Below, one piece after another: positions 4,942 to 36,202 of a stretch of DNA of 64,000 nucleotides. The stretch is from the NCBI GenBank assembly GCA_001940825.1, contig MSGT01000012.1, forward strand, positions 1 to 64,000, given 5' to 3'. The first letter of the stretch is position 1, and every line of letters starts with the position of its first letter. Made by a program: the position numbers and the translations under genes. The DNA comes from Sphaerochaeta sp. Phil3 (lineage in GTDB: Bacteria > Spirochaetota > Spirochaetia > Sphaerochaetales > Sphaerochaetaceae). The notes under the pieces were generated by a model. The model was given only the letters and a program-made list of their open reading frames with translations, did not search any database and was not told where the DNA came from.

Positions 4942-5301
4942 TCAGTCCTCCGTGACGACACACTCACAGCCTGCCGTCAGCAGGCGGTACAGCGTCAGCG
5001 GCACATACCACGCCGCCACCAGCAGCCGCCAGACAAGGACGCAGCCGCCGATAAGGCCGGCAAAGACGAAGTTCAGAAGGAACAGGGCGATCCCGCCGCC
5101 CAGAGAGCCGCCGCCCGGTATGATCCAGAGCCGCAGCCGCCAGATCCCAAACGGCAGCCCGCAGAGGATCCAGAGCCAGAGATAGTCCAGCTCCCCGTTC
5201 TTTACACAGGCGGAGCGGAAGATGCAGTACAGCAGTGCGGCCGACGCCACCGGCAGGATGGTCTTGCGGAAAAAGTCTTTTAAGGCCTCGCCTCTTGTCA
5301 T
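4942..5301 (-). CDS. DUF6050-like small membrane protein of conjugative elements
   Basis: This is a 119-residue protein with three or four hydrophobic segments: roughly residues 15-29, 37-55, 68-88 and 90-107. The motif LWILCGLPFGIWRL followed by GGGSLGGGIALFLLNF resembles DUF6050 proteins encoded in Clostridia Tn1549-like elements. Its role there is unknown. Its start lies at the broken end of a MobC fragment whose frame runs straight into it, so the native N-terminus or translation signals may be lost. No good Shine-Dalgarno is visible. Treat it as possibly non-expressed debris. Confidence 0.55.
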   Translation of the reverse strand: MTRGEALKDFFRKTILPVASAALLYCIFRSACVKNGELDYLWLWILCGLPFGIWRLRLWIIPGGGSLGGGIALFLLNFVFAGLIGGCVLVWRLLVAAWYVPLTLYRLLTAGCECVVTED

Positions 5302-5434
5302 ACCCGTCTATCGCCATCTTCCGCAGATACGCCCCGTACCGCCGTGTGGGGAGCTGCGCCATTTTCCCGTCAATGAGCCGCTTTTCCTCCTCCGTCACAT
5401 AGAACTTCATCTGAATATTCCGCTTTCGGTTCGC
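5302..5434 (-). pseudogene. MobC relaxosome protein, N-terminal fragment
   Basis: The translated strand reads KRNIQMKFYVTEEEKRLI and continues through LPTRRYGAYLRKMAIDGY. This is the N-terminal part of MobC-type plasmid/ICE mobilisation proteins, which help the relaxase at oriT. The match ends at DGY, where the DUF6050 start codon follows within a few bases. Upstream, the match stops at about 5434, where an unrelated recombinase fragment on the other strand begins. Both ends are therefore broken. Confidence 0.6.
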
Positions 5435-5436
5435 CT

Positions 5437-5571
5437 TACACCTGCGGCCGTTACCGCAACCGCATCCGGACCGGTGAGGTCTGTACCACCCACTATATCC
5501 GCAAAAGCGTTCTGAAAGAGTTGGTGCTGGGCGATATCCAACGGGTCCTCTCCTATGTGAAAGTGCCGTGA
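5437..5571 (+). pseudogene. Large serine recombinase, zinc-ribbon fragment
   Basis: On the plus strand the frame reads YTCGRYRNRIRTGEVCTTHY and then IRKSVLKELVLGDIQRVLSYV. This is the zinc-beta-ribbon region of TnpX/Tn4451-like large serine recombinases, with the CxxC half seen as CGRY and the later EVCTTHYI. It starts without a start codon. It departs from the family after LSYVK and stops three codons later. It is inserted between the MobC fragment and the IS110 fragment in opposite orientation. Confidence 0.65.
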
Positions 5572-6295
5572 GCGGACCGATTCCTGGAAGGGACATCCAG
5601 ATCAGCGTCTCGCGAGGCCTTGAAAGCAACGCCTTCCTGACAAGCTCATCGTAGGCGTCTGCGTGAAGTTCGATGCTGTCGATGCCATGGAGCATCAGCC
5701 TGGCCTGAAGGCCTGCGATGGAACCGTTGTCGTCGAAGTGGCGGGAGACGAGTGCATGCCTCTTCTCCGACCTTTTCAGATCGCTTCTCTTCAGGAACGA
5801 GATTCCGTTCAGGTTGAAGACTGCGTGCATCTGGTTGACGTCCCTTGTCCATTCCCTCCCGTTCGAGATGTAGCCGTTCATCAGACTTCTGAGCGAAGTC
5901 TCCTCGTATGTTGGGATTGGAATCAGACACCAGTTCGAGGGGTGTGTGTCCCTGATGTATCCGGCGATCTTGATGCAGTCCTGCTTGTCCGTCTTGCAGG
6001 AGGACTTGAAGATGATGTGCAGCTTGCAGGGGTTCAGCACGAACACTTCGGCTTCCGTGTGCTCCATCAGGTACCTTGCCAGAAACGAGGTCGAGGAACC
6101 TCCCTCCATAGCTACATAGTCCCCCTTTCGGAAACGCCTTGCGAGACGCAGACGACCCTCGTCGTTCATCCTTTCGTCGAAGATGTGCGTCTTCTCGAAA
6201 CATGTCTCCTCGTCCAGGAAGCACGCCTTCAACGCCTTCTTGGAGAGGTCAAGGCCGAAGATCCTTCTGGCCTCGAATCTGCTTGGTCTGTCCAT
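5562..6295 (-). pseudogene. IS110-family transposase, 3'-truncated
   Basis: About 245 N-terminal residues of an IS110-type DEDD transposase remain. The RuvC-like motifs are FGLDLSKK (first Asp), YVAMEGGSSTSFLARYL (Glu) and CKTDKQDCIKIAGYIRDTH (DxxD). The helical middle region and the start of the C-terminal domain (SLPGIGPLTAL) follow. The protein then runs into unrelated sequence, so the Tnp20 domain with the catalytic serine is missing and the copy cannot transpose alone. I chose the ATG at 6295 rather than 6310 because GGAGG sits 8 nt before it. The upstream non-coding end is retained. Confidence 0.8.
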
Positions 6296-6545
6296 GGTCC
6301 GGACCTCCATCCTATGGAATCGGCTTCGGAAGACTCTCTACAAAAGGTTCGCTCGACGAGCCCCTCACTTTTATTATCGGGGTAAGGTACCGGCGGCTTG
6401 CCGCCGGAGACCATCCCCACCGTAGGTATTCGATGACCGGATAGGAATACTTTTTTTAAAGAGGTACAGCTCAGAGACCGTCCTTCACGTGGCCGCCAAC
6501 TCCTGTCACCGGCTTCCGACATCCGTCAATGTCAGAATAGCATCG
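6296..6545 (-). ncRNA. IS110 non-coding end, candidate bridge-RNA region
   Basis: In the IS110 subgroup a long non-coding end upstream of the transposase encodes a bridge RNA that pairs with donor and target DNA. Here about 250 bp upstream of the transposase start lack a credible gene. They contain a perfect 8-bp GC-rich hairpin (6390-6397 with 6400-6407) plus further short complementary blocks. The RNA call is inference from family knowledge and position. The exact ends and binding loops cannot be read here. Confidence 0.35.
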
Positions 6546-6650
6546 TCTGCCGTAGCTGTGGACATCCTACTTTTTTTGTACTTTTGCAGGCTTACTGGGC
6601 TCGCTATGGCGCACTGATTTACTCTTAGAATGCAATGCTTGTGTTGTAAC

Positions 6651-6704
6651 ACTTGCGACAGATGCTACACTTGCGACAGATGCTACAACTGCGACAGATG
6701 CTAC
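6651..6704. repeat. Three 18-bp tandem units (period 9)
   Basis: Three tandem copies of an 18-bp unit ACTTGCGACAGATGCTAC lie at 6651-6668, 6669-6686 and 6687-6704; the third differs at its 5' end. Each unit is itself two diverged 9-mers. The two exact copies of the core CTTGCGACAGATG recur once more, inverted, upstream of tRNA-Thr at 59960-59972. Confidence 0.85.
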
Positions 6705-6805
6705 AGAATCGCTACAGTTTCACAATCTCACCACACTCACCATGCGCACCAACACTACGAAACGCTCACAATCACAACGTTATGATTCTACAACAGTGCG
6801 TTTTG

Positions 6806-6877
6806 GTGCGTGCAGTGCGTGATGTGCGTGAAGTACGTGCAGTCCGTGCAGTGCGTGATGTGCGTGAAGCGCGAGTT
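6806..6877. repeat. Degenerate 9-bp tandem array
   Basis: Eight consecutive 9-mers follow the consensus GTGCGTGNA, including an exact 25-bp direct repeat at 6809-6833 and 6845-6869. The stretch 6546-6977 contains this array, the 18-bp array and no credible gene; small ORFs across it only translate the repeat. Confidence 0.8.
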
Positions 6878-6977
6878 GTTGGTTCTAGATCAAATTGATG
6901 CGTCCTTATGCGTCCTTATATGCCATAGTTCACCACAGTGCACCCTCAGGAAACAAACACAAAGGTATAGGTTTTTG

Positions 6978-7005
6978 TTGCAATTTGTTGCGTTTGGGGT
7001 ATACT
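6978..7005 (+). promoter_or_regulatory. Promoter of arcC
   Basis: A -35 box TTGCAA (6978-6983), a 16-bp spacer and a -10 box TATACT (7000-7005) lie about 100 nt before the arcC start. This predicts a leader of roughly 98 nt. Confidence 0.5.
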
Positions 7006-7109
7006 ATCGTCATGCATAGCGGCGATGGACTTGGGAGGGTTCAAGGATATCGGACTGGGACGTTGTCGTGAATAGCGTGAACGAAGATATTTCAGGAGAG
7101 GATTAGGAT

Positions 7110-26766: not shown

Positions 26767-26780
26767 AGCTCGTTGTTTTT
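26750..26780 (+). terminator. Terminator of gpsA
   Basis: A 9-bp stem (26750-26758 with 26768-26776) that starts inside the last gpsA codons is followed by TTTTT. Confidence 0.75.
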
Positions 26781-26798
26781 ATGATGAGTGGTGTGTGT

Positions 26799-26879
26799 GG
26801 GCTGTCTGGGCCGTTGGGGCTTACAAGGCGCTTGTGGCGGTTGAGACGCTTATGGCGCTTGTGGACGCTTGAATTCTGG
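26799..26879. repeat. Degenerate 9-bp tandem array between convergent genes
   Basis: Nine consecutive 9-mers can be laid out, with several close to the consensus TGGCGCTTG; the 11-mer GGCGCTTGTGG is exact at 26827-26837 and 26854-26864. It fills the space between gpsA and the convergent thpR, has no credible gene, and resembles in design the arrays at 6651-6877 and in the pcnB tail. Confidence 0.6.
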
Positions 26880-35008: not shown

Positions 35009-36202
35009 ATGTTTACTAGATATAAGAAAAAGGCCGGCGCACTTGAAGCTGTAGCAAAGGTTTATTCTCGGCAGGAGCACGGAATCGACCCAACTCTGAT
35101 TGACAGTGACGCCGTTAGCGTGATCGAAAGGCTCGTCTCAAGGGGCTACGAGTCGTATATAGTGGGTGGGGCAGTAAGGGACCTTCTTCTTGGCCGTGTT
35201 CCAAAGGACTTCGATGTGGCTACAGCTGCGTCTCCGCGTGTTGTACACAACATGTTCGGCCGTCAGTCCATGATAATAGGGCGAAGATTCAAGATCGTCC
35301 ACGTCATGTTTGGCAAGAAGATAATAGAGGTCACCACATTCCGCAGCCTTGAGGATCATGCAGACGACAACGACAATGTCTTTGGCACCATAGAGGAGGA
35401 CTGCAGGCGCCGCGACTATTCCATAAACAGCCTGTACTACGATCCACTCACTTGTACCGTGATAGATTTCACAGGTGCCATGGACGATTTCAGGAAAAAG
35501 CGCCTTGTATCCCTCATCCCCCTGAACAAGACCTTCGTAGAGGATCCCGTGCGTATGGTCCGTGGTATAAAGTACTCCGTCACCACCGGCTTCTTCATGT
35601 CCCTTGCCCTACGGCATTCCATAAGGAAGTATGCCCCTCTTCTTCAGAACGTAAGCACCTCCCGCATGACTGAGGAGATAAACAAGATACTGGCCTGTGG
35701 CATGAGCTCTCCAATCTTCAAGGCTCTGTTCGATTACGGACTTCTTTCCTACATGCTTCCGTGCCTAGCTGTGTATGGCAGGTACCCGCAGCTGTACGAA
35801 TCCCTTGGAAAACTCGATGCAAAGGTCAACGAGGCGGCCGACGACACTCGCCGCAAAAGCCTTCCCAAGGCCATCATGTACCTGTCGCTTGTAAACCCGT
35901 TCATAGCCGATAACCCCGATATTACCGATGTCCGAGAGGTCTTCCAGGACACTCTGCGACAGACCAAGGTCCTCTTGAGCCCCATGACACCACCTAGGTT
36001 CGAACTGGAATCCACAAGCGTCATGCATATGCGTATGCGTGGCATAAACGTTCCAAAGGGTTCTGTGAAGGGAAAGAAGCGCGAAGGTAAGGGAGCTTCA
36101 GAGCAGTCTGGACGCTCTGGTCAGTCCCGTCGTTCCAGACAATCCAGCCAATCTGGACAATCTAGGCAGTCTGGGCAATCTAGCCGCTCTAAAACGGTCT
36201 AG
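35009..36202 (+). CDS. pcnB: Poly(A) polymerase/PcnB-like nucleotidyltransferase with repeat tail
   Basis: This 397-residue class II nucleotidyltransferase has motif A YIVGGAVRDLLLGRVPKDFDVATAA with the DxD pair. EVTTFRSLED, RRRDYSINSLYYDP and FVEDPVRMVRGIKYS complete the head and neck domains. This pattern, with RRRDY and no HD domain, is PcnB-like, so it may add poly(A) tails to RNA while the separate gene at 19206 adds CCA. The last 33 or so residues are a low-complexity Ser/Arg/Gln/Gly tail encoded by a period-9 DNA repeat. No clear ribosome site precedes the ATG. Confidence 0.85.
   Translation: MFTRYKKKAGALEAVAKVYSRQEHGIDPTLIDSDAVSVIERLVSRGYESYIVGGAVRDLLLGRVPKDFDVATAASPRVVHNMFGRQSMIIGRRFKIVHVMFGKKIIEVTTFRSLEDHADDNDNVFGTIEEDCRRRDYSINSLYYDPLTCTVIDFTGAMDDFRKKRLVSLIPLNKTFVEDPVRMVRGIKYSVTTGFFMSLALRHSIRKYAPLLQNVSTSRMTEEINKILACGMSSPIFKALFDYGLLSYMLPCLAVYGRYPQLYESLGKLDAKVNEAADDTRRKSLPKAIMYLSLVNPFIADNPDITDVREVFQDTLRQTKVLLSPMTPPRFELESTSVMHMRMRGINVPKGSVKGKKREGKGASEQSGRSGQSRRSRQSSQSGQSRQSGQSSRSKTV
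36101..36199. repeat. Degenerate 9-bp tandem array in the pcnB 3' end
   Basis: About ten 9-mers of form C-A/G-N-TCY-NNN, consensus CAATCTGGN, encode repeated Q/R-S-X tripeptides. The array ends at the pcnB stop, between the convergent pcnB and P-loop genes. Confidence 0.75.

Follow-up and report, generated by a model that had tools for sequence, protein, structure and literature searches.

What are the two adjacent tandem arrays with a common 9-bp period that lie ahead of arcC in this 64,000-nucleotide stretch of Sphaerochaeta sp. Phil3 DNA (the window), and does some general mechanism produce or keep 9-bp repeats in this genome? We tentatively read both arrays as parts of one copy of a dispersed, apparently species-specific, non-coding modular element whose modules would be putative multi-site recognition arrays, a reading to which we assign a probability of roughly 0.45.

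Both arrays were present where the original prediction had placed them (6649-6705 and 6806-6873 by TRF), as was an exact 25-bp repeat in the second, with starts at 6809 and 6845, 36 bp apart. The observation was right but too small: the two arrays correspond to modules A and C in a larger mosaic between genes, of which modules B and D had been missed. All parts of this mosaic are on the plus strand. It is headed by a short module of CTGGGC type (GGCTTACTGGGCTCGCTATGGCGCACTG; 6595-6617) that is common to the copy at C46:109043-109161, which matches window positions 6595-6705 when used as a BLAST query. Module A (6647-6709) is a 9-bp array of the unit CTACARNNG, overlain here by an 18-bp higher-order repeat (period 18, 3.2 copies and 94% matches by TRF). 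Module B, a degenerate 9-bp array of the unit CTCACCANN, lies between A and C at about 6727-6763, and a conserved junction core, CAGTGCGTTTTGGTGCGTG (6794-6812), marks the start of module C (6806-6886). The unit of module C is GTGCGTGNN, and the array carries a 36-bp local duplication, 25 bp of it exact; TRF assigns it period 9, 7.6 copies and 81% matches and stops at 6873, the final one or two units being weak. Module D (6893-6947; TRF match 6898-6919) is a 10-bp array, ATGCGTCCTT.., of the same type as the 10-bp cluster naTnCGCCnT, and period-10 cluster 7 includes C12:6893. The stretch around the arrays is gene-free, as had been claimed, but its extent was not 430 bp: the whole gap between predicted genes spans about 800 bp (6311-7109), and the distance from the first array to arcC is about 460 bp.

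In four relatives (G009, G006, G007 and G003) the stretch before arcC resembles window positions 6975-7010 (TTGTTGCGTTTTGTTGCA and TATACT), and arrays of this kind were not seen in the 420 bases upstream of arcC in these genomes. Positions 6400-6579 of the window match G007:C4:32586-32766 at 81%. Next to the gap, at 4964-6310, a reverse-strand ORF joins, in one frame, a DEDD transposase domain of IS110 type and a NikA-like match too weak to reach the Pfam cut-off; judged by these matches, it looks like a broken insertion sequence beside a mobilisation gene.

The two further period-9 arrays that had been reported in the window were confirmed by TRF at 26776-26871 and 36103-36196. The former contains a delta/epsilon family array (26795-26866, minus strand) between convergent genes. 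The latter contains an alpha family array (TCTRGNCNN; 36107-36187, plus strand) followed by the alpha end anchor TCTAAAACGGTCTAG (36188-36202, plus strand), and this array forms the in-frame C-terminal tail of a poly(A)-polymerase-like gene (35009-36202): positions 36107-36202 translate as SGRSGQSRRSRQ..SKTV, and the anchor supplies the last codons and the stop. In the relatives with a readable frame (L205, L206, L208, L210, L211 and L214), the tail of this gene is a different basic stretch, and the end of the protein appears to have been replaced by an array.

These arrays are accompanied by many others in the genome. A sample of 699,203 bases (41 pieces including the window, chosen without regard to matches) was scored for non-coding windows in which at least 22 of 36 lag-matches were identities, and gave 38 such windows at lag 9, with 31 and 25 at its multiples 18 and 27. 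Lags 10, 11 and 12 gave 17, 10 and 7 windows, and lags 5-8 gave 1-3 each; period 9 is therefore commoner than 6, 7, 8 or 10, in line with the original prediction. The excess is not due to chance, because at a threshold of 23/36 the 67 kb of non-coding blocks held 29 lag-9 windows, compared with a mean of 0.0 in 10 Markov-1 simulations. By the same lag-9 measure the relatives gave 3 windows in 35 kb of non-coding DNA (G007), 2 in 23 kb (G005), 1 in 15 kb (G004, G006 and G009 together) and 1 in 14 kb (G012 and G014 together), versus 38 in 67 kb in Phil3.

A process that makes 9-bp repeats anywhere does not by itself describe these arrays, most of which, in non-coding DNA, belong to about seven recurring unit families that keep a fixed order and are copied as modules. 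With window positions 6600-6930 as the BLAST query, 21 other rows, several of them sharing a locus, were returned from the Phil3 genome at E<1e-4, and two other copies returned 27 and 21 rows. The copies read at these loci consist of several degenerate arrays in a row, every one with a unit of its own, separated by short conserved linkers. A module comprises about 5-9 degenerate units in succession at a fixed pitch, which is 9 bp in alpha, A, B, C and delta (NGCCCCANN) and 10 bp in beta (NNTCAGGTAC) and gamma/D (ACANCGCCNT). Across 963 kb of the genome, part of it chosen for its matches, there are 167 lag-9 or lag-10 arrays; five main clusters take in 87 of the 122 period-9 arrays and three take in 32 of the 45 with period 10, and several smaller clusters sit in coding DNA. 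The unit sets were collected with the motif models themselves, and the count of 163 family arrays takes some arrays twice, since "zeta" is for the most part family B read on the other strand. Among 65 intergenic gaps, the neighbour orders A+B+ (12), alpha+beta+ (11), B+C+ (10) and beta+delta+ (7) were recorded, and none of these four pairs is listed in reverse. Modules in a fixed order (A-B-C; alpha-beta-delta), with a subset that varies by locus, are a trait shared with BOX elements.

This organization bears on whether each array could be an ordinary minisatellite, grown in place by slippage or unequal crossing-over. The arrays do resemble VNTRs and minisatellites in their tandem units and in some recent local duplications, namely in the A array (18-bp) and C array (36-bp) of the window and at C5:6708, and whole-unit gaps separate homologous copies, as such growth would predict. 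However, an exact internal repeat of at least 18 bp occurs in only 9 of the 167 arrays, the same unit families are found at many unlinked loci with anchors and order conserved, and the fixed positions of the units are better conserved than the linkers. Growth in place is thus very unlikely as the sole origin of the family.

The array family looks species-specific in our searches. Exact matches to the alpha pattern number 32 in the Phil3 genome and 0 in 147 other genomes of the class; with one mismatch allowed Phil3 has 78, and 10 other genomes of the genus have 4 between them, compared with 14 for the backward control in those genomes. The C core, with up to 1 mismatch, has 11 matches in Phil3 and 0 in these 10 relatives, most of which are incomplete (63-93%). 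BLAST with three copies against 30 relatives gave no array match, the matches lying only in the outer parts of the queries. The A pattern was also met in one distant genome, as a single perfect CCACAGCCA array. No match was found by blastn with one copy (L017) in the plasmid collection or with another (L056) in the phage collection, and the core pattern occurred in 0 viral contigs and, with the Phil3 records excluded, once among genome contigs, in a Phycisphaerae contig (L110) that we take as a chance match. G007, a member of the genus, has two 9-bp arrays built of different units (AGATGCCCT; TTGGAAGAT type) that begin directly at or after a stop codon (L144:12985 and L143:2213), and this relative may have a tendency to 9-bp arrays at gene ends on a small scale.

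Alpha unit columns are bimodal, with T1, C2, G5 and C7 at 95-98% and positions 4, 6, 8 and 9 at 39-64%, and the bimodal pattern repeats when the units come from arrays that were detected only by their periodicity. Homologous copies (43 pairs of array regions aligned at at least 78% identity over at least 80 columns, at least 20 of them linker columns) differ at 44 of 973 fixed positions (4.5%), 385 of 2855 linker positions (13.5%) and 285 of 1294 variable positions (22%), so that the rate of change at conserved unit positions is about one third of that in linkers; this contrast is partly circular, as the fixed class was defined from the same unit pool, although an 85% cut would also admit positions diverging like linkers, and the linkers can only approximate neutral sequence. 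Rates for linker, fixed and variable positions were.174,.053 and.306 at 72% identity (95 pairs) and.088,.045 and.167 at 84% (13 pairs). When only disjoint pairs were drawn (200 draws of about 12.5 pairs each), the rates were.050 for fixed,.160 for linker and.263 for variable positions, and the difference between fixed and linker positions gave a median Fisher p of 8.5e-7 and a worst of 0.006. The variable positions may differ more than the linkers because units are exchanged or misaligned. Indels of 1-3 nt numbered 27 over 5014 array columns versus 38 over 2909 linker columns (p 4e-4, with pairs not independent), a contrast that lost significance in the disjoint draws (median p 0.066), while gaps of exactly 9 nt between homologous copies numbered 7 in arrays and 0 in linkers.

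Taken at the level of sequence comparison, these differences suggest that the fixed unit positions and their spacing are under constraint, the spacing being more weakly supported. The proposed general mechanism would accordingly survive in one of its two halves: 9-bp repeats may be kept, through constraint on motif positions and less clearly on spacing, while their production by such a mechanism would be conjecture, with 9 of 167 arrays holding an exact internal repeat of 18 bp or more. Multi-site recognition would be expected to hold a motif at a fixed step between homologous copies and to let units come and go whole, which is the pattern seen. The conserved positions and the pitch would then be putative recognition sites, the array a multi-site platform for a sequence-specific binder of DNA or of the 3' portion of transcripts, and the mosaic as a whole would spread by duplication and be tolerated mainly near gene 3' ends. 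A more elaborate version holds that the several motif types of these phased arrays each have their own member of a putative binding-protein family, and that the arrays serve as ordered punctuation near gene 3' ends, having arisen within the species and being held by selection; we consider this version doubtful.

Alternatively, the mosaic may be neutral or selfish, its modules spread by duplication and ectopic recombination, its units exchanged genome-wide and its conserved core a by-product, for example of unit copying. This is a close rival to recognition arrays and a real possibility. A shared unit pool predicts that units should be no more alike within arrays than between them, as was found for alpha (.648 within,.657 between), A (.610,.606) and B (.631,.664). 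Adjacent units compared with units of different loci gave similar values (alpha.650 versus.657, A.602 versus.606, B.624 versus.664, beta.643 versus.636). In C (.673,.623), delta (.664,.598) and gamma (.631,.600), identity was slightly higher within arrays; that these units are slightly more like their neighbours than like units elsewhere is as local turnover would give, and counts against recognition. When arrays were compared from their anchors, units in register were more alike than units shifted by one in A (.534 versus.456), B (.628 versus.555) and beta (.626 versus.574), as copying by descent would give; C showed hardly any descent (.545 versus.533), and alpha no signal of it (.663 versus.647, and.667 at two units). 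Variable neighbours inside units are correlated, so unit types recur, and this too is in keeping with a neutral mosaic, as are the absence of the family from the relatives searched and the distribution of arrays among gaps, commonest in convergent and rarest in divergent ones. What speaks against neutrality is that, in the same pairs, the rate of change at fixed positions is about a third of the linker rate.

Template-copying or A-specific mutagenesis was rejected by reasoning as a source of the pattern: the strand on which a family lacks A at its fixed positions is not the same throughout one mosaic.

The position of arrays relative to genes was counted only in DNA taken without regard to matches. 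Genes were predicted with a simple finder based on hexamers, and the gap counts leave out the 11 family arrays, of 174, that overlapped a predicted gene. Of the 172 gaps of at least 100 bp, 24 contained family arrays: 11 of the 36 where genes converge, 9 of the 84 where they run the same way and 4 of the 52 where they diverge. The suggestion that arrays prefer the 3' ends of genes is moderately supported by these counts, since convergent and divergent gaps differ overall (p=0.008) but not significantly among gaps of 200-900 bp (p=0.15). Several arrays, read by eye, come directly after terminator-like hairpins or RNA genes. Small ORFs stand beside module A at L014, L019 and L026, each upstream of an A-B-C mosaic; they look like putative type I (holin-like) toxins.

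Another alternative is that the arrays are Rho-utilisation sites, C-rich, G-poor and unstructured in RNA, with a C at every step of 9-10 nt, at which transcripts would be ended. A near-invariant C is indeed present on the C-rich strand of every family, and most arrays are without excess structure. Of 27 co-directional gaps with arrays, 17 have the C-rich strand in sense with respect to the upstream gene, compared with 17 among 101 array-free gaps that are C-rich in sense; for alpha the figure is 13 of 14. However, 17 versus 10 does not depart from random orientation, sense orientation accounts for 9 of 18 B arrays and 7 of 13 C arrays, and in A, B and C the fixed C is preceded by A, which gives AC instead of YC. 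In PMC9160355, rut sites are C-rich, G-poor unstructured stretches, and the descriptor sets 9-13 bases between YC dimers, which gives a pitch of 11-15 versus 9-10 in the arrays. The arrays are similar to rut sites in composition, length and lack of structure, but their pitch, YC content and orientation fit poorly, and a role in Rho-dependent termination seems unlikely.

Structured RNA, a CRISPR-like array or a coding repeat is the least credible account, and we give it almost no weight. Twelve elements were folded on both strands, with 60 dinucleotide shuffles each, and although two of the 24 strands had z-scores of -3.3 (L014, minus) and -3.0 (L016, minus), the remainder ranged from -1.4 to +2.6, with no consistent structural excess. 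A candidate hairpin formed by an inverted repeat at the end of B and the start of C (AAAACGC..GCGTTTT), convincing on inspection, was rejected, changes in its left arm being uncompensated in about half of the rows. An Rfam search of the window returned three tRNAs only and no match in the array region. The alpha array of the window is translated in frame, as a coding repeat would be, but 10-bp families cannot keep frame, and their presence rules out coding for the mosaic as a whole; the ORF that runs over the window arrays (6653-6898) has no Pfam match. A CRISPR array was rejected because the units abut head to tail at a pitch of 9-10 bp and there are no unique spacers.

The element belongs with the modular intergenic repeats, a kind already known. 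BOX elements of Streptococcus have a modular boxA-boxB-boxC build and form stable stem-loops. The present element is likewise intergenic, modular and present in many copies, but its modules are phased 9-10 bp arrays and are unstructured (z -3.3 to +2.6, most near 0). For BOX elements, PMC2828477 gives 103 copies in S. mitis B6, with expansion or reduction at corresponding positions. The STRR of filamentous cyanobacteria, described in PMC2670836 and named also in the title of a reference cited in PMC2858038, are short-unit tandem arrays of unknown function in non-coding DNA, with hairpin-capable units that are usually 7 bp long. Arrays in Phil3 are also short, tandem and dispersed in non-coding DNA, whereas their units are of 9 or 10 bp, fall into seven families, make up ordered modules and form no hairpin. 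A literature search, with most subscription journals outside it, found no description of such arrays, STRR and BOX being nearest.

If the constraint is real, one species would have evolved and spread modular, phased arrays of short motifs in a genus otherwise without them, which would clearly exemplify how a dispersed repeat can acquire a use, and the step of 9-10 bp would be a handle on its reader. If the mosaic is neutral, it would still be an unusual one, with an influence on the 3' ends of genes and, in one case, on the tail of a protein.

Other repeats were also seen. Tandem arrays of 11 bp that fall outside the families occur in non-coding DNA at G000:C36:34982 (TTTAGTCCGCG) and C8:7341 (GGTTTAATGTC). 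A further repeat of about 100 bp (..AAAGACCAAGAA..GGTATTTGAGCCGTATTCAAGGA..GGATAGTACT..TGTACAGCC..) is found at L074, L076, L077, L022 and L023, where it is tandem in places and adjoins the stop of a convergent gene.
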